Shown here: piece after piece, positions 417 to 12,964 of the stretch
Numbering within the stretch: the stretch's first letter is position 1
How the letters are laid out: each line of letters opens with the position of its first letter
Virus record (IMG/VR): IMGVR_UViG_3300032296_000873
Location: 1-30,785 of that record
Strand: one strand, 5' to 3'
Origin: a virus
DNA length: 30,785 bases
The notes under the pieces: model-generated
What the model was told of the DNA's origin: nothing
The model's database searches: none
The model's input: the letters and a program-made list of their open reading frames with translations, nothing else
Program-made: the position numbers and the translations under genes

Positions 417-706
417 GTACCCGTAGCATCCAGTCCATCCTCCGAATCGCCCAAGAAGAGGCGACCCGTCTAGACGGAGAGATCAACACCTCCAATGAGC
501 AGGTGATCTATCTCGCCGACAAACTCGCCAAGGTCTTCCACTCGCTGCGCCAGTTCAACGAGACGCACGGCCGAGACCTCGACCCGGATGTGCTTGACGC
601 ATTCAACTCGGCGTGGCGAAACCACGAATCATCCTTTGACATCTGGCAATCCTACCAGCATAACAGCCTCTCTCCCACCACCAACAACACTGATACCAAT
701 GAGTAA
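413..706 (+). CDS. Small hypothetical protein, helical
   Basis: This 97-residue protein starts at the ATG that overlaps the previous stop (ATGA), which I prefer over an in-frame ATG at 362 lying inside the upstream gene. The sequence is mainly charged and helical (SIQSILRIAQEEATRLDGE and a later LADKLAKVFHSLRQF stretch), with a Ser/Thr/Asn-rich tail that looks disordered. No catalytic motif, membrane segment or signal peptide is visible. It directly precedes and overlaps by 8 bases the Rad52-like annealing gene, so it may be co-translated with it and act in the same DNA-processing context, but that is inference from position only. Function unknown. Confidence 0.7.
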   Translation: MSTRSIQSILRIAQEEATRLDGEINTSNEQVIYLADKLAKVFHSLRQFNETHGRDLDPDVLDAFNSAWRNHESSFDIWQSYQHNSLSPTTNNTDTNE

Positions 707-1604
707 TCCAGAAGAAGTAATGAACAAACTCCGCGCTCCTTTCGCTGCTGACCGCATCGAGTGGCGTGTCGGTTCCTGCGGCGAAAAGTCGGACGGCTCG
801 ATCTGGGCGCGATGCCTCGCCTACATCGACAACCGCGCCGCGATGGAACGCCTCGATGAGGTCTACGGAATGAACTGGTCGCACAGCGAAGAGTTCAAGC
901 AGATCGGCGGCCAAGCCGTCTGCACTGTGACGATCACTATCGAGTCCCGCAACGAAGGCGTGGCCCTGTTCCCCTATCGCTCCGTCACTGGCTCCTGCTG
1001 CGTGGAAGCCAACGGCGACATCGACCCGTTCAAGTCCGCTGCCTCCGGTGCTATGAAGCGCGCCGTGGTCAATCTCGGCATCGGCCGCTACCTCTACGAT
1101 CTGCCCGAGGCTTGGGCTGTCATCGACCCCAAGGGCAAGTATGACGGCAAGACCAAGAGCGGCACTCGTTTCCGCTGGAACCCTCCGCAACTCCCGGGTT
1201 GGGCTGGCGGCGGTGCTGCCTCCGTCCAGAATGTCATCAGCAACGCCGAGTACCACGCCAGCGAAGAGTATCAGGTCGAGGCCGCTCCCGCTCCCGTCTC
1301 TCGTCCGGCTGCCGCCGCTCCGGCCGCTGCCTCCTCCGGCAACGACCCCATTGTTCCCTTCGGTGACCGCAAGGGTCAGCCCCTCTCCAGCCTGCCGCTC
1401 AAGGGCGACAAGGGCGTGAAGTGCGGCGACCTGTACTACTGGGCTAAGGTCTACACCCCGAAGGAATTCAAGGGTTCAATCTCGCCTAAGGACATCGCCC
1501 TCAAGAAGCGCGCCGAAGAGATGTACGCCGCCGCCACCTCTGGCTCTGCTCCTAAGTCCGAGCCGCAGTCCATCGACGACATCATCGACGAAGTTCCGTT
1601 CTAA
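699..1604 (+). CDS. Rad52/Rad22-family single-strand annealing protein with ExoX-C-like C-terminal domain
   Basis: This 301-residue protein starts at 699; the longer in-frame ATG at 588 lies inside the neighbouring gene. Residues ~8-140 carry Rad52-family features: IEWRVGS, a YGMNW motif near 57-60, and the signature DPFKSAASGAMKRAVVNLGI at 109-128, which ends in GRYLYDL. Such proteins form rings that anneal complementary ssDNA in phage recombination and repair. Residues ~190-215 are an Ala/Pro-rich linker. Residues ~217-278 (VPFGDRKGQPLSSLP, then DLYYWAK) resemble the DUF3820/ExoX C-terminal module found on nucleases. The protein ends DDIIDEVPF, like the acidic tip of bacterial SSB. The first assignment is strong; the last two are pattern matches. 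No exonuclease partner is seen in the window. Confidence 0.85.
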   Translation: MSNPEEVMNKLRAPFAADRIEWRVGSCGEKSDGSIWARCLAYIDNRAAMERLDEVYGMNWSHSEEFKQIGGQAVCTVTITIESRNEGVALFPYRSVTGSCCVEANGDIDPFKSAASGAMKRAVVNLGIGRYLYDLPEAWAVIDPKGKYDGKTKSGTRFRWNPPQLPGWAGGGAASVQNVISNAEYHASEEYQVEAAPAPVSRPAAAAPAAASSGNDPIVPFGDRKGQPLSSLPLKGDKGVKCGDLYYWAKVYTPKEFKGSISPKDIALKKRAEEMYAAATSGSAPKSEPQSIDDIIDEVPF

Positions 1605-1943: not shown

Positions 1944-2400
1944 GATCCTAGACCCTGAGCGAGTCCGGGCGCTGATGGCATCTATGCAGCCTCCCGGGGT
2001 GCAGCACGATTCCAATGTCGATTTCAGCAAACGAAATACTCGCAGCAAGGTAGAGAACGCCTGCACGATGATCGTGAAGACGGCTTGCTCGATCCCGGCT
2101 GCCGCCCAGTCTTGGGGGGTCTCCACTAAGAAGATCCTTGATTACGCCAAGGCCAACAACATCCCAGTAGTCCACAAGCCGTGGGAACTGGATGCTAAGG
2201 CTAAGGAGATTATCGAGTCCGGGTCGTATACTCAGAATGTACCCCGAGGTCTGAAGCAGCGCGTGGCCTACGAACTCGCCCTGAAGATCGGCCTGAGCGC
2301 AGCCTGTCGCCGCCTCAATGTTTGCAGGCGTGGCATTTACTACTACTGTGAGCGGTACAACCTGCCCACCCCTGAACGATCCGAACGCAGAAAACGATGA
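1927..2400 (+). CDS. Putative DNA-binding protein with two HTH-like segments
   Basis: The 157-residue protein starts at the ATG at 1927, which overlaps the previous gene by 17 bases; an in-frame ATG at 1855 lies deep inside that gene and is rejected. Two segments look like helix-turn-helix units: residues ~57-79 (PAAAQSWGVSTKKILDYAK) and ~122-146 (GLSAACRRLNVCRRGIYYYC). The C-terminus is strongly basic (ERSERRKR). This fits a DNA-binding protein, perhaps a transcription factor or recombination accessory, acting in the host cytoplasm. Its stop overlaps the start of the metallophosphoesterase gene (ATGA). The HTH reading is based on spacing and small-residue patterns and has not been confirmed by profile search. 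Confidence 0.65.
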   Translation: MIKANKILDPERVRALMASMQPPGVQHDSNVDFSKRNTRSKVENACTMIVKTACSIPAAAQSWGVSTKKILDYAKANNIPVVHKPWELDAKAKEIIESGSYTQNVPRGLKQRVAYELALKIGLSAACRRLNVCRRGIYYYCERYNLPTPERSERRKR

Positions 2401-3134
2401 GTACCCCATATGAGATTGTCGCTATGGGCGACAACCACGGCGACCTAGCCTGCGAGAATACCCTCGATGGGATTATGGCCTTCGTTGAACGGGTGCGCCC
2501 AAAGTACAGGGTACATCTAGGAGATAACTGGGACTTCCGCTGGGCGAGGCGTGGCGTTGACAAGGACTCCACGGAAGCCCGTGAAGGGGTCAAGGAAGAC
2601 CTAGAGGCTGGCATCAAGTGGCTAGAGCGGTACAAGCCTACCCACTTCCTTATGGGCAACCACGATGACCGCATCCGGCAGATCATCCATAGTACGGACT
2701 CCATCAAGACCCGCGAAGATATGCAGGAGATTCAAGACCGCATTATGCGGACGCTCCGCAAGGTTGGCTGCAAGGTCATCAAGCCCTACAGCGTCAAGCA
2801 CGGCCGTATTGTCATCGGCCCCCTGACATTCATCCACGGCTTCTCCCACGGGATGAACGCCCTGCTAAAGGATGCCCGTGCATTCGGATCTCCGGGCGGC
2901 GGCTTTACGATGGGTCACCTGCATCGCCTAGAGCAGTTGAACAACGAGTCCTTTGAGGGCGGCGCGTCTTGGCTGTGCGGCTGTGCTATGCGTATCGATT
3001 CCGCTGAATACGCGATGAGGCACAGTTCTACCCTTCGGTGGCAGAACGGGTTTATGTGGTATCGAGTGGAAGGTGATAACTACATCGGCAAGCAAGCCCA
3101 CCGCTTCGGCAAGGGCTGGTACTACCCGGCCTGA
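2397..3134 (+). CDS. Calcineurin-like metallophosphoesterase
   Basis: This 245-residue protein carries the full motif series of the metallophosphoesterase superfamily: D-x-H as GDNHGD at residues 11-16, GD as HLGDNWD at 40-46, GNHD at 87-90, a His in IHGFSH at 146-151, and GHLH at 173-176. These residues bind two metal ions and hydrolyse phosphomonoesters or phosphodiesters. Phage members are often called phosphoesterases or DNA-processing nucleases; the substrate cannot be read from the sequence. It is a single-domain protein of usual size, with no signal peptide, so it should act in the cytoplasm. It overlaps the genes on both sides (ATGA before, TGATG after), in an operon with an annealing protein, which is compatible with a role in nucleic-acid metabolism. 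Confidence 0.9.
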   Translation: MSTPYEIVAMGDNHGDLACENTLDGIMAFVERVRPKYRVHLGDNWDFRWARRGVDKDSTEAREGVKEDLEAGIKWLERYKPTHFLMGNHDDRIRQIIHSTDSIKTREDMQEIQDRIMRTLRKVGCKVIKPYSVKHGRIVIGPLTFIHGFSHGMNALLKDARAFGSPGGGFTMGHLHRLEQLNNESFEGGASWLCGCAMRIDSAEYAMRHSSTLRWQNGFMWYRVEGDNYIGKQAHRFGKGWYYPA

Positions 3135-4744: not shown

Positions 4745-5453
4745 TGTTCTTGTCCTTGATGAAATCAAAAAGCCGCCAAAGCAAGAGGCAGGCGGCGATT
4801 CCTAGGGTGACACCAACGATCCAAGCGAAGTACTCGGACGAGAGGATGACCGGGACGGCTGCGGCCAGCGGAGCGCAGGCCAAGATCGAGCCGCCCACGC
4901 GCCAGCCGAAGATAGCCCCGGTCAGAACCCCGACCACGAACAGGCCGACCCCGGCCATAGTCCAGAGGCTCTTGTCAGACTCGTCCTTGACCTTCTTGAT
5001 CTCAGCCTTGAGGGCTGCCGCCTCCTTCTTGGAAGCGTCCAGATCCTTGCGGGCTTGGACAAGTTCATCGGCGTTCTTCTTGGACTGGGCTACGGCCTCG
5101 TTCCATTCCTTCTCCACGCCCTTGAGCCAAGCCTTGGCCTTGGCTACCTCGGCCTCATATGCCTTGGGGTCTGCGGCGGCAGCCCTGTCCCGGGCGGCCT
5201 TGAGATCTGGCTCCTCAGGCTTGGGGAGATGAGCCAGCGCCACCCTGCCCTCGGACTGAACCACGGGAGGCTTATTACTGTTCTCAATCATAACAGTAAC
5301 GGCAGAGGCGACTTTGGAGTCTCCCTTGTCGATATTGTTACCCAGCGTACCGAGGCTATCAGGGGTGGGTACGGCCACGGGAGGAGCCTTAGGCTCTTCC
5401 TTCGTAGAACAGCCTGCAAGGGCAAGCCAGAGGCCAACAAAGATGTATTTCAT
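4728..5453 (-). CDS. Lipoprotein with coiled coil and C-terminal TM segments; possible unimolecular spanin
   Basis: The 241-residue protein begins MKYIFVGLWLALAGCS, a short signal peptide with lipobox LAGC and lipidation Cys at 15. A Pro-rich stretch (~21-31) follows, then a long Ala/Lys/Glu coiled coil (~82-160), then hydrophobic segments at ~163-183, ~189-205 and ~209-232 and a charged tail. An outer-membrane lipid anchor, periplasmic coiled coil and inner-membrane anchor in one chain is the layout of unimolecular spanins, which fuse the two membranes at the last step of lysis in Gram-negative hosts. Classical ones have a single TM segment, so three would be unusual. The start overlaps the stop of the giant upstream gene (ATGA). 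An i-spanin-like or unrelated lipoprotein is also possible. Confidence 0.65.
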   Translation of the reverse strand: MKYIFVGLWLALAGCSTKEEPKAPPVAVPTPDSLGTLGNNIDKGDSKVASAVTVMIENSNKPPVVQSEGRVALAHLPKPEEPDLKAARDRAAAADPKAYEAEVAKAKAWLKGVEKEWNEAVAQSKKNADELVQARKDLDASKKEAAALKAEIKKVKDESDKSLWTMAGVGLFVVGVLTGAIFGWRVGGSILACAPLAAAVPVILSSEYFAWIVGVTLGIAACLLLWRLFDFIKDKNNEQSK

Positions 5454-8400
5454 CGGGAAGGCATAACTCCTCGGTAGCGTTCCAAGTTCTGGATCTGCAT
5501 AATGTCCTGCTCGGAGCGATAGACATTGGCCTTAGGACGGCCTGTGGCAGGCTTGGTCGTCTCGGCATCGAGATAGTTCTGAGCAGCCTCAAGCGGGCTG
5601 ACCTTCAGCACCCCGACTCCGGCGGTGTTCAGGAATCGGCGCTCAAGATTCTCCATCGCCTCGATAGCATCGGCCGCATCGTTGGTCTGCTTGATGAGCA
5701 TCCCGTTAGCGCCGTACACCTTGTAGGTGACGATGTCCTTGCCAGCAGCAGAGTTGGCATTCTTGTACTCGCGGAGCAGACGGCCGCCGGACTTCTCAGC
5801 CACCCACATACGACTGTTGATCAGATTGATGCCCTGCTGGGCAGCCATCGGGCCTCGGAAGGCTTCCCCGGCGATAGCCTTACCACGGCCGATGTTGTCG
5901 GCGAACAGGTAGTTGGCGAACGCCTGCTGGAAGGCCAGCGTATTGGATTCAAAGCCAGCCACATTACGGAGGTACAGGATACCTGTACGGGTCGTGGCCG
6001 AGGGGGTTACCGCTGTGTCCGTGGCGACAGCCATACGGAACGGCTGCACTGTCAGGCGACCCGGGTCTACGAGGATAAGGCCGGGAGCGATGAGCGGCTG
6101 ATTAGAAGACAGGGCCAAATCAATAAGCCTGTTGGTCTCGCTTCCCTTAACATCGGCCACACCGCGAGCCGTCTCATAAGCGCGCTCAAAGGCAATACGG
6201 CGGGCATCGGCCTGAGCCTGAAGTTTGTCGGCCTCAATCTGGGCTTCACGGGCAGCCTTGGCATCAGCCTTGGCTTTCTTCTGGGCTTCGCTACGCCAGT
6301 ACGCAGCGCGCTGCTCGATGGCCTCAATCTCCGCTGCTGCCTTCTCGCGGACTTGGTTGACCATAGCACGGCGCTTCTTCTCGTTCTCATTCAGGGTCTG
6401 CTGTTTGTCGCGGGCCTCGGCCTTGCGCTTCTCAAGGATTGCCTTGTAGCGAAGCCTCCAACGCTCGGCCTCGGTTCGCTCCGGCTCAGTGATGCGAGTG
6501 ATCTTGCCGTCAGGGCCGACACGGAACTCCTTGGTGGCAGCAATCTCCTCTGGTGTCATATACGGAGCCTCGGGGGCTTCTCCCGCGCGAGGGGTTACAT
6601 CTCGACCCTGAGCAGCAGCCTCGGCCTCGGCGGCAATGATTTCAGGAGCAGTGGTCGGTGTGGCTTCAGCAGCAGGCGCTTCCTCCCAGAGTTGCGGGGC
6701 TTCCTTCTTGAGGTTCAGTTCAGAACGATCAAGAACCTCCATCGTTTCCTTCCACTCCTTCTGAGCCACCCTGAAATCTTCTCCTTCAAGACCGCCAATC
6801 GCTTCACCCTTTGCCTCCATATGCTTACGGAAGGCTTCAAGGTACTCCCTGTTGTTCTTGAATGTATCCTGAGGATGCTCCTTGTTAAATGCATAGGCAG
6901 CAAATTCCGCACTCGCGCTTCTTCCGAACTTTGAGAACTGGAACAAGTTGGCGATTGTCTCAGTACGCATAGTATTGTTCGGAATCTCGTATGCGATGGT
7001 CTGCTTGCTTTCGGCCTTGAAGATGGTCGTGCTTAGTTCCTTGAGATGGTCGATGATAGGACGCATTCTGTCGGCGCTTACGCCGCCAAGTCGTTTCTGG
7101 TCTTCCGCTCGCTTGATGAGGCTATCAACAACTTGGCCCGGATTAGCACCATTGGCGATGATGTCCATAGCCTCATCGGCAATGAACTTAGCGACAGAAG
7201 GAGGAACCTTGCCTCCCTGCTCCTGATACAGACCCTTAATGATTCCGTTGAAGTCATTGATGTCCGCAACCTTCTGGCTCAGGAAGAAGTTAGACTGAGG
7301 CTTCGGAGCCTGAGCCTGAGTACCCGGGAGCGGCTTGTCGCGCTCATAGCGCCACTGGTTCAGGATGGAATCGACATAGGCAGCGTCCTCACGGGAGGCG
7401 GTCTTTTTGCGGATTTCCGAAATTACATCCCGCATCTCAAGGCTGTTGCTCTGGACGATCTTGCCGTCACCGAGCGTGTACGAGATGACCTTCTCCCCGG
7501 TGGATGTCTTGCCCGTGAAGATCTTGACCTCAGACAGGGACGGGTGGACGCGGACTTCAGTGACTCCGACATCAAGGCCGTTCTGGTACTTGCCGCCTCC
7601 TAGGTCAAAGACAGTCCTGATGGTCATCGCCGGGATACCCTTGATAAGCGGAACCTTCTGGATGTCCCAGCCCTTGACAGACATCACGAACTGGCCGCTA
7701 GTCACGCCGCGCTGATCGATGAACTGAGACTGGCCGTTAGGCTTGAGCGGGCCGAACTGGTCGAGACGGAAGTCGGACAGCGGGAAGTTAGTGCCACGGA
7801 TGGCAAAACCATTGGCCGTGTTGGTCTGTCGGTTCTGCTCAACCCAGCCAAGTCGCTTCTTGCCTGACTCCAACTGGTAGATGATACGCAGGGCATCACG
7901 CATCGCAGCACCACGGACAGGGTTCTGCGGGTCAAGGACTTCAGCGGACACCGGATTGACATCACGGGGAGCGCCGTCCTTCATCGGGATATTGGCAGTA
8001 GGGTCTAGCGGGCCGTTCTTGTAGTAGTGGTTCATCCACAAGGCTGCCGCATTATGGAATTCAGCATCCGTACCGAACAGGCTTCGGAGGTAAGTGGCCG
8101 TGTATTCCTTGCCAGCCGGATCTTTCAGGAAGGTGCGCTTGCCAGCCTCATCGAGCGTATAAAGGCCGCCGCTGAAGGACTGGTTTACGGAACGCTGGAA
8201 CGCCTGAGTGTCGAAGCCGTGGACACGGACGACACGCTGCTTGGCGTTTACCATCTGGCCTGTCACCGGGTCTTTGACCTTAACCTTATTGCCCTTGGCA
8301 TCGTAGATAGGCGCTTCGCCCATCGTGAAGGCCAGAGGAACGATATGGCGAGTCTCGCTCTTACCAGCGATATCCTTGCCGATGCGGAGGCGGTGAGCCG

Positions 8401-11400
8401 TCATAGCCTCGACATTGACCGAGAACACATTGCTGTACTCAGCCGTCAGGACGGCCTTGGATTCACCAGACCCGATTGTCTTCAGGATAGTGATGAAGTT
8501 GTCCTTTACGGACTGCGGCACATTCGGGTTGTTGGCGATAGCCGCAATCTCGACCTGAGACGGGATACCCGTGCGGATGACATTGCCGTCAGCATCAGTG
8601 TAGACCTGCATCCCACGCTCGGCCTCAGGAATGGCATTGAGGCTGTCCTCCATCGAACGGACGAAGCCGTCAGACTTAGCGCCGATCTGCTCGGGCGACA
8701 TAATATTGCCACGCTCGTCCAGCACCCAGTCCATCCCGTTCCGCTTGATGAAGTCGATACGCTGCTCGACAGGGATCATCGGGTCGTACAGGTTGATGGG
8801 TCGGACTTTCATCGAACCCTTGCCGCCAGTCACATCGATGAGCCTGTCGTAGAAAGCATCTAGAACGGCAGAGCGTACAATCTCGTTGTTCTCGTTCAGG
8901 AAGTAGCCGCGCAGGGTTCCGTCACCGGACTCCACGAAACGCATACCAGAAGCCTCAAGTTGAGTCAGGATGTGGGCTGCGTTCTTGCGGGTGAACGACC
9001 CGTAGACTGGGTCGAACATATTCTTGAGAGCCGTATCCACATTGTCGGCGATGGTTCGATCACCGAACAGGGTCTTCTTGATGGCGCTCCAGTTTGTCGT
9101 GGCAGATGCGGCACGGCCGGGAGGGGTAGCGAGGCCGGGGCGATAGCCCGGACGCTTGGCAAGGTCAACGGCGGCCAGCATCCAAGTCATCGCTTCGCGG
9201 AGAGGATCAATGACACCAGAGATATCCTTGCCGCCAGACTTTTCGTACAGGTCGATTCCGTTCTTACCCTCGGCCATAAACTTGGCTCGCTGGGCAGGTG
9301 TAAGGGAGTCTCCGTAAGCCTCAAGGATGGCGTTGGTGATTTCCTTCGGGACGGCACGACCAGAAGAGTCGCCAGTCGGCTCAAGGAGCATCTTGACCAT
9401 ATCAGGCATCAGGCTCTCGGCGGCCGAGTCGGCCAGAAGGGCGTGCATACCCTCGGAGACAGCACCGATGTTGTCGATGTTGTCGATGTTTAGGTAGACG
9501 CTCTTTCCCTGAGGGCCGTCTACGATGTAGAAGCCGTTGGCAACGGAGCGAGCCGTGGAGCCGTCTGGCATAGCACGGGACTCATACGGACGGAAAGGAA
9601 TCTCGACCTTTGACTCGCCGAGGGCCGCATTGTAGTCCCCGGTAAGGACAGTGTTTTGTTGTCCGGCTACCTCAAGGCTGGCCTGCAACTCGGACTTCTG
9701 CTGGAGCAGTCGGTCTAGTTTAATCTTGTTCGCGTCAGCCTTCTTGATGTCAGTCCAGTTGACTTTCTCGTCATCAACGATGGCCTGCTGCTTGGCGATT
9801 TCGGCATCAACAGCCTTCATCGAGCGGTTCAGGTTATCAATGTTTACCTGATTCTCCTCAACCTTAACTTTTAGGTGCGTAGCCCTGTCCTTGGCTTCGC
9901 GAGACTTGTCCAACTGAGCCTTGCGCTGTTTCGCGTAATCGGCAGCCTTAACAGGATCTCCGGGGTGAAGGGCGGCGGCCTCGGACATAATCATATTGGC
10001 CTCGACTTCAGGAGAACCTGTCAGGATTGTGGCGGCCTCAAACTCAGTGCCTCGGACGAACTTCACCTGTCCACGGGTGGACATATACAGGTCACGGACG
10101 ATGCCAGCGCGGCGAATGTATCCGGCCGAGTCAGCACCGGAGTCACCAAGGAAAGCAAGCATATTTGCTCGCTGGGCTGGATCCTTTATTTTCTGTGCAA
10201 TAGTAACTACATCCCCTAGGATGACACGGGCGTGAACAGGGTCAGCACCATTGGGGGTGACTTGGTGCAGGCGGTTCATAGCCCGGAAAGTACCGGAGAA
10301 ACCGATGCCCATACCAGCGCCAGCGCCGTAAGCGTCACTATCGTTAAGACCAGCAATCAAAGCACCAGTGCCACCCGCGATAAGGCCATCTTCCCAGACG
10401 ACACGGGTAGCGTTCATCATCGCGTCTTCTAGGCCAGACCGATGCATACGGCGAAGGATTTGAGCGTCATCGGAAAGCATAGCGGCTTTCGCAAGGGCGG
10501 CCTCCTGCTCGGCTGTACGCACGACACCCTTCATCATCGGTACGCTGCTGAAAAGTTTACGGGCTTCCTCTTCCATATCGATGGCACTGCGGAGGAATGT
10601 GGATTCGCCATACTGCTGACCCTTGGCGATGTTAGCGCCGATGGCTTTGTTGATTCGTGCGGTCTGAGCGAGTTTGCCTCCGATGAGGCGAAGAGTTTCC
10701 GGGCGAAGCAGGAAGCCTATGCTGGATGAACCCATAGCAGAACCAGCAGCAATCATCGCAGCGGTAGCGAACTCCCCTGTTGCGATTTGAGCGGCAACCA
10801 AAGCGCCACCAGCAACGCTACCAGCAAAAGGCACACTAAGGATTTTGCGAGATGCCGTTCCGAGCCATCTGCGGACAGTGTACCCTTTTGCCGTGGATCG
10901 CTCAACATCTAGCAAATTAGCAATAGCATTGAACGGAGCAGAAGCACCCTGAGCAAGATAGCCTCCACCCTTAATGACAGAGCCTCCGACAGGACGAGCG
11001 CGGAGTTTCTCGATGCCAGCGACATCGTCCGGAAGTTCGTCCAACTTGCCAGTAAGTTCGTTGACACGCTTGGAAAGACCTTTGTTCTTGGCAATGGTCT
11101 GGCCGATTTCCTTGCGGACTACCTGAGCGGCAGGAGACTGTCCGATGATGGACTTGCGGTCACCGATAGCCAGACCGATGATGTCGTCATCCGTGAACTT
11201 AGCGCCCGGAAGGGCGGCCTCAAGTTTGACACGGAGGTCGGCAATGGCAGCATCGAACACCTTGCTTGTGGTGTTGGCGCTGGCACGGAGGGCAGAAGCC
11301 TCGGCCGTGACCTCCTGAAGTCCGGCACGGATCCCATCAAGCGTCTTCTTGGCGGCGGCAGCCTTGGCTCCTACACCGAGAAGTTTTAGGCCGCCAAGGA

Positions 11401-12964
11401 CAGTCATCACAGGGTCGGCAAGAGCGCCAGCCTGAATGAGTTCCTTTTCCTGCATAATGCTTCCAGCGGCCCGCTGGCCTTCACGGAAGATAGAAGGCTG
11501 TCCGGGTGAGATAGCCTCGGATGTTTCGGCGGCCTTGCGATAGAAGAAGCCAGTGATAGACTCGCCGTCACCCTGAGCGTCACGGGAGTTCTCAATCCAA
11601 AGGTCGATGTTTTCGTCCAGTTTGGCCGCCTCCATCTGCTGGTAGGCAGTTGAACCCCTGATGTAGTCAACATACGCCTTGCCCGGGTGACCAGCCATAC
11701 CCTTGAACATAGCCTCTGTCTTGAACATCGCAGAGGTAGGATCGAGGGACTGGTTGAACAACTTGACCATATTCGGAGCGGCGTTCATCACACCCTCACC
11801 GAAGTTAGCAAGTCGCTCCCAAGACATCTGGGGACGGAAAGCGCCTTCGGCCTTGAGTTCAGATAGACGCTGGAATGTAGCGATATCGTCCGGGTTGGCG
11901 TACTGACCAAATCGGCCGTTAAGGGTTGCTGCAAAGGCAGCGCCGTCTTCATCGGCATTAGCAGCCTCGGCCATTTCTTTGCCGTACTCCTTGGCAAGTT
12001 CGTGGGCGCGCTGAAGGACAGAGTTTGCCTCGTCCTGATACTCCTTTGGCTTCTGAAGCCAGATGTCGGAAAGGACAGTTCGTCCGTTCTCCATCATCAC
12101 CTCCCCTTCACTGCCGATGGCTACCATTGTCCCGATGCCGCCTTCAACAAAGCCTCCAACAGCATAACCGCCCTCAACGGCGAGATTAACTACGCCCTCG
12201 GCAAGACTACCAAGGAAAGATTCTCCGTGGTACTCTTTCCATCGAACGGCAGAAAGAAAGGCTTTACGGCGGGCATCACCAGTAAGCCCGGAAAGTTCCT
12301 TAACAGGATTATTGAAGACCTGCTGGCCGTACTGTGAGTTGACATCCAGCATATCGACCATCGGGCGCAGGATGCCCATCGTGTAGGTATTGGTGGCCTT
12401 GCGGGCGGTCAGTTCGCCCTCTTCGGCGACCATTCGGGCAACGACCCAAGGGTCTACCCCGGCCTGCTTGGCAATGCCGAGGATCTGTTCATTGCTTAGG
12501 TCGGCAGGATAAAAGGTGTCCCCTGCTTTCTCGGCCTCGTCCATCTTGGCCTTGATGACAGGGGCAATCTTGCCGTAGACATACTTGGCATCGTGACGAA
12601 CCTGCGGGCGCAGGGTGTTCAGGACATACCACGCAGCGTCCTGATTGCTGTTAGCACCTTGCGGCAGGCCGCCCTTGATATTTCGGGAAAAGTCGTACAG
12701 GGCTAGGCTGTCAGGACTAGGCTGCGCTCCAGCGCCAATGGCCTCCTGAGTAACATCACTACGCTCAAAAGCCCTAAACAGGCTCTGGTTGGCCGCCTTG
12801 TACTGCTCGTTGCTACGCAGCGTATACTCCGGAGTACCGGGCTGGTACTGGGCATCGGAGTACATAGCCCCCGCCGGAGTCCCGTCCGCTAGTTTGTAAG
12901 CGAAGGGTTCAATCGGGTAAGCCCCTTCGTCAGACTGGGCTTTGAGCGTGGTGGGAGATTCCAT
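5450..12964 (-). CDS. Giant (2504-residue) putative internal virion / DNA-ejection protein
   Basis: At 7.5 kb this is about a quarter of the window. It is the last of four genes placed where T7-like phages keep internal core proteins gp13-gp16, and gp16, the last, is also the largest (~1300 residues in T7). The role is inferred: a virion protein ejected to form the channel for DNA entry. Gly/Ala-rich, weakly hydrophobic segments lie near residues 250-286, 513-541, 706-755 and 856-891 and could contact membranes. Long charged coiled coils lie near 1010-1108 and 2165-2271. Residues 158-190 (ILGIAKQAGVDPWVVARMV) resemble the first helices of an SLT transglycosylase, but no G-x-x-Q motif follows. 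Near 1165-1175, SEGMHALL vaguely recalls an HExxH-type helix without the Glu/His pair. No intact enzyme domain is visible. Confidence 0.75.
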   Translation of the reverse strand: MESPTTLKAQSDEGAYPIEPFAYKLADGTPAGAMYSDAQYQPGTPEYTLRSNEQYKAANQSLFRAFERSDVTQEAIGAGAQPSPDSLALYDFSRNIKGGLPQGANSNQDAAWYVLNTLRPQVRHDAKYVYGKIAPVIKAKMDEAEKAGDTFYPADLSNEQILGIAKQAGVDPWVVARMVAEEGELTARKATNTYTMGILRPMVDMLDVNSQYGQQVFNNPVKELSGLTGDARRKAFLSAVRWKEYHGESFLGSLAEGVVNLAVEGGYAVGGFVEGGIGTMVAIGSEGEVMMENGRTVLSDIWLQKPKEYQDEANSVLQRAHELAKEYGKEMAEAANADEDGAAFAATLNGRFGQYANPDDIATFQRLSELKAEGAFRPQMSWERLANFGEGVMNAAPNMVKLFNQSLDPTSAMFKTEAMFKGMAGHPGKAYVDYIRGSTAYQQMEAAKLDENIDLWIENSRDAQGDGESITGFFYRKAAETSEAISPGQPSIFREGQRAAGSIMQEKELIQAGALADPVMTVLGGLKLLGVGAKAAAAKKTLDGIRAGLQEVTAEASALRASANTTSKVFDAAIADLRVKLEAALPGAKFTDDDIIGLAIGDRKSIIGQSPAAQVVRKEIGQTIAKNKGLSKRVNELTGKLDELPDDVAGIEKLRARPVGGSVIKGGGYLAQGASAPFNAIANLLDVERSTAKGYTVRRWLGTASRKILSVPFAGSVAGGALVAAQIATGEFATAAMIAAGSAMGSSSIGFLLRPETLRLIGGKLAQTARINKAIGANIAKGQQYGESTFLRSAIDMEEEARKLFSSVPMMKGVVRTAEQEAALAKAAMLSDDAQILRRMHRSGLEDAMMNATRVVWEDGLIAGGTGALIAGLNDSDAYGAGAGMGIGFSGTFRAMNRLHQVTPNGADPVHARVILGDVVTIAQKIKDPAQRANMLAFLGDSGADSAGYIRRAGIVRDLYMSTRGQVKFVRGTEFEAATILTGSPEVEANMIMSEAAALHPGDPVKAADYAKQRKAQLDKSREAKDRATHLKVKVEENQVNIDNLNRSMKAVDAEIAKQQAIVDDEKVNWTDIKKADANKIKLDRLLQQKSELQASLEVAGQQNTVLTGDYNAALGESKVEIPFRPYESRAMPDGSTARSVANGFYIVDGPQGKSVYLNIDNIDNIGAVSEGMHALLADSAAESLMPDMVKMLLEPTGDSSGRAVPKEITNAILEAYGDSLTPAQRAKFMAEGKNGIDLYEKSGGKDISGVIDPLREAMTWMLAAVDLAKRPGYRPGLATPPGRAASATTNWSAIKKTLFGDRTIADNVDTALKNMFDPVYGSFTRKNAAHILTQLEASGMRFVESGDGTLRGYFLNENNEIVRSAVLDAFYDRLIDVTGGKGSMKVRPINLYDPMIPVEQRIDFIKRNGMDWVLDERGNIMSPEQIGAKSDGFVRSMEDSLNAIPEAERGMQVYTDADGNVIRTGIPSQVEIAAIANNPNVPQSVKDNFITILKTIGSGESKAVLTAEYSNVFSVNVEAMTAHRLRIGKDIAGKSETRHIVPLAFTMGEAPIYDAKGNKVKVKDPVTGQMVNAKQRVVRVHGFDTQAFQRSVNQSFSGGLYTLDEAGKRTFLKDPAGKEYTATYLRSLFGTDAEFHNAAALWMNHYYKNGPLDPTANIPMKDGAPRDVNPVSAEVLDPQNPVRGAAMRDALRIIYQLESGKKRLGWVEQNRQTNTANGFAIRGTNFPLSDFRLDQFGPLKPNGQSQFIDQRGVTSGQFVMSVKGWDIQKVPLIKGIPAMTIRTVFDLGGGKYQNGLDVGVTEVRVHPSLSEVKIFTGKTSTGEKVISYTLGDGKIVQSNSLEMRDVISEIRKKTASREDAAYVDSILNQWRYERDKPLPGTQAQAPKPQSNFFLSQKVADINDFNGIIKGLYQEQGGKVPPSVAKFIADEAMDIIANGANPGQVVDSLIKRAEDQKRLGGVSADRMRPIIDHLKELSTTIFKAESKQTIAYEIPNNTMRTETIANLFQFSKFGRSASAEFAAYAFNKEHPQDTFKNNREYLEAFRKHMEAKGEAIGGLEGEDFRVAQKEWKETMEVLDRSELNLKKEAPQLWEEAPAAEATPTTAPEIIAAEAEAAAQGRDVTPRAGEAPEAPYMTPEEIAATKEFRVGPDGKITRITEPERTEAERWRLRYKAILEKRKAEARDKQQTLNENEKKRRAMVNQVREKAAAEIEAIEQRAAYWRSEAQKKAKADAKAAREAQIEADKLQAQADARRIAFERAYETARGVADVKGSETNRLIDLALSSNQPLIAPGLILVDPGRLTVQPFRMAVATDTAVTPSATTRTGILYLRNVAGFESNTLAFQQAFANYLFADNIGRGKAIAGEAFRGPMAAQQGINLINSRMWVAEKSGGRLLREYKNANSAAGKDIVTYKVYGANGMLIKQTNDAADAIEAMENLERRFLNTAGVGVLKVSPLEAAQNYLDAETTKPATGRPKANVYRSEQDIMQIQNLERYRGVMPSR

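Follow-up and report, generated by a model that had tools for sequence, protein, structure and literature searches.

An SSB-like tip and a predicted ExoX-C/DUF3820-like module form a portable cassette at the C-terminus of phage annealing proteins

The single-stranded DNA-binding proteins (SSBs) of bacteria and phages have a disordered tail ending in acidic residues followed by a hydrophobic residue, proline and phenylalanine (DDDIPF), and this tip normally stands on an SSB fold. In a viral DNA of 30,785 nucleotides (IMG/VR record IMGVR_UViG_3300032296_000873, positions 1 to 30,785; here called the window) the same kind of ending closes instead the product of a gene resembling those for annealing proteins, which raises the question of what such a tip might do there. 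A preliminary description, made from the letters only, placed the gene at 699-1604 with the end DDIIDEVPF, and both are correct on translation, the 301-residue product ending SIDDIIDEVPF (Table 1). Its ATG (699) lies inside the end of the upstream ORF, whose stop is at 704-706, and this overlap suggests that the two are coupled in translation.

Table 1. Position of the annealing gene and of the parts of its product in the window
Feature	Coordinates	Strand	Residues and basis
Annealing protein gene	699..1604	+	301 aa; ORF listing and 33 relatives
Rad52-family annealing core	711..1121	+	Residues 5-141; PF04098 2.9e-14; fold closest to human RAD52
Ala/Pro-rich disordered linker	1215..1340	+	Residues 173-214; pLDDT < 50
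DUF3820/ExoX-C-like module (predicted)	1347..1538	+	Residues 217-280; conservation, predicted fold, PF12843 in relatives, ExoX-C profile
Disordered C-terminal tail	1545..1601	+	Residues 283-301; pLDDT < 50
SSB-like tip DEVPF, extreme C-terminus	1587..1601	+	Conservation among relatives

Viral contigs were scanned with the protein, using no pattern that touches the tail, and this search returned 33 relatives, which rule out a fusion peculiar to this contig. An AlphaFold model of the full protein, built with 34 aligned sequences, had a mean pLDDT of 71.7 and a pTM of 0.50, and it laid the chain out as a Rad52-like core, a disordered stretch at 173-214, a small domain at about 217-280 and disorder again from 283. 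The Ala/Pro linker that had been described after the core corresponds to the first of these disordered stretches, and both its length and its sequence vary among the aligned relatives. An AlphaFold check had been proposed for the C-terminal part, and it returned the compact domain between two disordered stretches.

The assignment of the core to the Rad52 family was borne out by several comparisons. Residues 5-141 match PF04098 (Rad52/22) with 53.7 bits against a cut-off of 20.3, and the protein matches phrog_1097, 'Erf-like ssDNA annealing protein', at 6e-46. When the predicted fold was compared with 999 chains using VIA-align 2, human RAD52 and yeast Mgm101 occupied ranks 1-12 with Z scores from 9.1 to 11.2; human RAD52 came first, at Z 11.2, with an rmsd of 2.9 across 129 residues. 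Foldseek with the predicted structure gave nothing significant (best Rad52 row E 0.06), and a sequence search of the PDB with the protein returned nothing meaningful (best E 0.17). The product is therefore classed, by sequence, as a putative phage single-strand annealing protein, the ssDNA binding and annealing of its core being assigned by family. The core type is the one found in the Rad52/Sak-type phage proteins (ul36 Sak and the Erf-like proteins of ES18 and Sf6; PF04098, phrog_1097), and among the matches listed those of Salmonella, Escherichia and Shigella phages are 42-44% identical to the window protein over residues 8-169.

The small domain between the linker and the tail is built around the motif PFGxxKGxxLxxL...LxxW...P...G.ISxKD, followed by a helix, and residues 211-281 folded alone gave a compact domain with a pLDDT of 88 and a pTM of 0.71. 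Conservation was followed in two alignments, one with 30 of the 34 members (A2; L001, L013, L015 and L024 were omitted as copies or near-copies) and one with 35 rows picked for diversity (A5). The proposal that this domain resembles ExoX-C/DUF3820 finds support in the family and none in the window sequence taken by itself: residues 217-301 of the window protein matched no Pfam model at E values up to 10, PF12843 and PF20600 included, whereas PF12843 (DUF3820/QSregVF_b) matched the modules of 16 of 30 relatives, with a best E value of 9e-5. One ERF-type relative, L062, exceeded the curated cut-off of PF12843 (24.4 bits against 22, over 37 of 66 model positions), and the other relatives scanned whole stayed below it. 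PF20600, the ExoX-like C-terminal model with a cut-off of 26.5 bits, matched neither the window nor the 30 modules, the relative L182 reaching E 0.4 and 10.6 bits, below that cut-off.

A profile comparison brought the ExoX side of this kinship into view. With hhalign, a profile of 35 modules matched an ExoX-C profile with a score of 39.0 and a probability of 94.8 (E 5.3e-8 in a single comparison) over 25 columns, so that the kinship is supported by some 25 columns surrounding the FGK-x-KG motif; none of 200 column shuffles reached this score, the shuffle maximum being 16.7. The ExoX-C profile was made from eight of nine fetched ExoX proteins (E. coli and seven phages), hand-cut just before the motif; the J2-1 protein (L147) was omitted for want of a clean cut at its motif. 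When E. coli ExoX was the single sequence compared, the match of the module profile was weak (E 0.01, probability 4). The FGK-x-KG core is common to ExoX-C (PF20600), DUF3820/QSregVF_b (PF12843) and the module, but the module continues with P-x-x-x-G-x-I-S-x-K-D and a helix, and ExoX has an RNase T domain whereas Pfam found none in the window protein. Comparison of the module structure with the PDB by Foldseek gave a best E of 7, and VIA-align over seven chains gave none with Z of 2 or more, which does not demonstrate a new fold. A tblastn search of 50,697 named phage records with the module had no match at E 10. Taken from relatives, profile comparison and structure prediction, the likely architecture is thus an annealing core, an ExoX-C/DUF3820-like domain and an SSB-like tip.

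The tip itself was described as close to that of SSB, and the relatives show it to be conserved at the protein level and at the extreme C-terminus: all 33, and the window, end in D[DE][VI]PF. Counting the window, there are 31 distinct proteins, which are invariant at positions -5, -2 and -1 and vary at positions -6 to -15 with entropies of 1.5-2.9 bits. Thirteen versions of the final five codons were seen, with synonymous changes at D and P in addition to D/E and V/I swaps, and the F codon is TTC in all 34 sequences. An end of the form [DE][DE][VIL]PF is found in 38 of 2631 distinct ORFs (stop to stop, 60 codons or more) from the window and the collected loci (L034, L073 and L111 left out), and all 38, judged by their ends, belong to this group of annealing proteins. 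The invariant tip beside a variable stretch, the varied codons and the rarity of the ending among ORFs indicate that selection maintains the tip as a C-terminal peptide. A chance or artefactual tail is ruled out by the conservation, the codon variation, the ORF-end count and the linkage of module and tip described below. Pfam found no match to PF00436, the OB-fold SSB domain, in the annealing protein. The window's tip has the bacterial SSB consensus. A search with the window's terminase turned up four records, none with a host, and a search for relatives in genome contigs gave 191 and 54 pattern matches, none of them confirmed.

Module and tip are not confined to the Rad52-type core. A search with the module profile found both on ERF cores (PF04404) in L062 (4.6e-12), L069 (7e-14) and L070 (8.3e-17); an ERF core was also seen in L102 with PHROGs, and in L104, L107 and L108 by sequence likeness to L102. 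At L072:2335-3258 the module stands on a third type of N-terminus, phrog_19042 (function unannotated; 7.5e-60), with the variant end EEVEF. This N-terminus is possibly an undescribed annealing family, and the protein had no match at 0.01 in named phage records.

Core-only searches were then used to compare proteins with and without the module, keeping the best 80 of at least 581 Rad52-type loci and the best 80 of 114 ERF-type loci; with the best 80 kept for each, module-less ERF proteins are unsampled among viral contigs. The module (E < 1e-3) was present in 115 of the 160 kept loci, 35 Rad52-type and 80 ERF-type. Among these best 80 loci per core, and with a loose tip pattern that accepts DDVPY and DAIPF, 108 of the 115 module carriers had the tip against 1 of 45 module-less Rad52-type relatives; for the ERF type, in the best 80 of 114 loci, the module was found in 80 of 80 and the tip in 74. 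In the 107 distinct module carriers the penultimate residue is always P, the last residue is F in 104 and Y in 3, and the last nine residues hold two to five acidic residues and no K or R in 104. The seven carriers with altered tips end in DPY (2), NPF (3), KPF (1) or GPF (1), and all the NPF and KPF ends are preceded by a complete internal DDVPF. The C-termini of L296, L300, L302 and L303 have a second PF end a short stretch after a complete DDVPF (DDVPFGDEGNPF, for example), and their tip looks duplicated or extended. The sole tip among the 45 module-less proteins is that of L184, a Rad52-type protein ending ADDDGLPF, which may have gained its SSB-like tip independently.

In a tree built from 97 distinct modules (of 116 carriers), well-supported branches force at least five changes of core type; with six long rows removed at least four are left, two of which depend on one row each, L168 and the long branch L181. 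A smaller 35-row tree forces two. The trees have 57-59 columns and a long-branch warning, and the bootstrap was unsettled in the tree made without the six long rows, so that the number of core changes is only rough. Module and tip are thus a portable C-terminal cassette whose two parts are linked and which is carried by swapped types of core. The ERF and Rad52/22 proteins, distinct in Pfam, have been placed in one superfamily (PMC8093625), and a different core therefore means a different family, the fold not necessarily being unrelated. The many ERF-type proteins of viral contigs share module and tip with the window protein but differ from it in their Pfam core, and the ERF proteins of the named phages Estes, LP.2, Pq0 and 42E have no tip.

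An SSB (PF00436 over its cut-off) was seen in none of 129 module-bearing records (0/48, 0/50 and 0/31), against 18 of 45 records with module-less Rad52-type proteins. This contrast is suggestive and not proof, since the records are often partial and a single C-terminal type, the ES18/Sf6-type end ELKQ.., is common to 31 of the 45 controls. One module-bearing record, G033, has a sub-threshold match to PF00436 (E 0.005, 12.3 bits) with a stop inside. A downstream ORF with an SSB-like tip was seen within the fetched flank of 0 of 115 module carriers against 7 of 45 module-less loci. The comparison was made with PF00436; DUF669 and Enc34 matched neither in 43 long records nor in the controls and are thus uninformative. 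An SSB encoded elsewhere in the window was considered and discarded, PF00436 having no match in the window record. As many records are fragments, a missing SSB gene is weak evidence when taken singly, and because of the shared ELKQ.. end of the controls, phage lineage and near-copies confound the tip contrast as well as the SSB contrast; in the Fisher tests of both, rows were taken as independent.

The named phages show the other arrangement. None of 13 (nine Rad52-type and four ERF-type) has a tip on its annealing protein, and among the nine Rad52/Sak-type ones, which unlike the window protein end without it, several have a separate SSB gene downstream. In six of the 13 (D4044, ES18, ul36, Sf6, SV21 and 42E) an annotated SSB ending DDLPF, DEIPF, DSDIPF or SDLPF is encoded immediately downstream, except that a single small gene intervenes in SV21. 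The protein that follows the annealing protein in Vibrio phage 1.265, unnamed, ends DEEIPF, and the SSB of LP.2 ends DEEMPDW. An ssb gene has been reported to adjoin almost 80% of the erf genes of Firmicutes phages, and a rad52/22-ssb module has also been reported (PMC8093625). From these sources, a tipless annealing protein beside a tip-bearing SSB is a common arrangement. The records of module-bearing phages suggest a different one, in which the annealing protein itself bears the tip and a PF00436 SSB was not seen.

On balance, we think it probable that these proteins combine an annealing core with a portable cassette whose tip docks host SSB-interacting proteins, the recruitment being inferred. 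The Rad52-type core would coat ssDNA and anneal complementary strands, and the tip would dock into the SSB-tip pocket of host RecO, PriA, Exo I, DnaG primase, RecQ or RecJ. RecQ and RecJ are among the host proteins that bind the SSB tip. An annealing protein on phage ssDNA might in this way recruit enzymes of host repair and replication by itself, and the module might provide a second contact, perhaps with DNA ends or a nuclease, given that its kin occurs in ExoX. More tentatively, several lineages may have put module and tip, as a mobile SSB-tail cassette, on different annealing cores, making the annealing protein an SSB-type recruitment hub in phages without an SSB gene of their own. At least 17 SSB-interacting proteins dock the SSB tip in E. 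coli (PMC7145534), and C-terminal regions of annealing proteins have been reported as dispensable for annealing and needed for partner contacts (PMC11783212). In phage HK620 the last six residues of the SSB, NDYPPF, are required for Sak4 to bind SSB-covered ssDNA and for its stimulation (PMC5928155). An SSB-like tip is there functionally tied to a phage annealing protein, as we propose here, although in HK620 the tip is on a separate SSB, needed for Sak4 loading, and here it lies within the annealing protein (PMC5928155).

Other functions for the tail can be imagined. It is disordered and acidic, and it could serve as an internal gate, folding onto the protein's own ssDNA groove as a DNA mimic until displaced by ssDNA, with no recruiting job. 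Acidic tails of the SSB type can also act on the DNA-binding site of the same protein, and for E. coli SSB weak binding of this kind has been cited (PMC5928155). Electrostatics would not, however, need the nearly invariant P-F seen in the distinct carriers, nor would one expect such a tail to be kept on two different core families, and we regard the gate as unlikely if it is to be the whole explanation; gating and recruiting roles would be compatible and not exclusive. A little less likely still is that the tip binds a phage-encoded partner encoded nearby, such as a PDDEXK exonuclease, a metallophosphoesterase or a helicase loader, and not host proteins. Around the annealing gene lie an HTH_36 gene and an IstB/DnaC-like gene upstream in contig G009, an HTH_36 gene and a DUF3799 PDDEXK nuclease gene upstream in G015, and a metallophosphoesterase gene downstream in the window, but the tip follows the bacterial SSB consensus and is common to both core types, the other genes having been compared in few contigs.

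The least probable of the readings, to which we give little weight, turns the direction around: many copies of a free SSB-like tip would compete with host SSB, and might thereby inhibit RecO, PriA, RecQ or Exo I and shield the phage DNA. The conservation of the tip is silent on direction; a tip on a DNA-annealing protein with a second conserved domain nevertheless fits delivery better than competition, and we continue to prefer the docking of host SSB-interacting proteins.

In the open-licence literature, as judged by titles and abstract openings, we found no description of an SSB tip on an annealing protein. A C-terminal HTH domain thought to be shuffled among clusters of annealing proteins is already known (PMC8093625); it is a DNA-binding domain related to the C-terminus of Red beta, with no SSB tip mentioned in the accessible part of that work, whereas the cassette of the window consists of module and tip. 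If our reading is true, the handover of a phage annealing protein to the replication and repair machinery of the host would be encoded in a single polypeptide. Host SSB compatibility is thought to limit where annealing proteins work in genome editing, and a protein with its own SSB tip is therefore a practical lead. A functional setting would also be given to DUF3820/PF12843, which takes its name from a putative quorum-sensing virulence factor, and phage matches to PF12843 may in some cases be tails of annealing proteins. In viruses of the Southern Ocean, PF12843 has been treated as quorum-sensing-related (PMC8407431), and some of those matches could be C-terminal modules of annealing proteins.

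A few observations were made on the surrounding genes. Gene calling on the long contigs was mechanical, and the annealing gene of G041, for example, was missing from the flagged ORFs. A Pfam scan of 92 of the 119 listed ORFs of G009 and G015 together, with structural-looking ORFs left out and spurious ones included, found two RusA, two C-5 methylases, two metallophosphoesterases and one Dam. The window encodes a metallophosphoesterase downstream of its annealing gene, at 2397-3134 (+), matching phrog_221 at 7.7e-15 and phrog_7339, 'DNA repair exonuclease', at 2.1e-7, and in G009 a similar ORF is found on the same side of the annealing gene (L126:6706-7440). The metallophosphoesterase of the window is possibly a nuclease partner of the annealing protein. 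In Erythrobacter phage R6L (L143, gp46-gp47) an ExoX-type exonuclease gene overlaps the start of the ERF annealing gene, a gene-neighbour link between the ExoX and ERF families that gives a hint at a nuclease-related role of the module. Further along the window, positions 5450-12964 (-) are taken up by a single ORF of 2504 aa, which probably encodes a giant virion protein.
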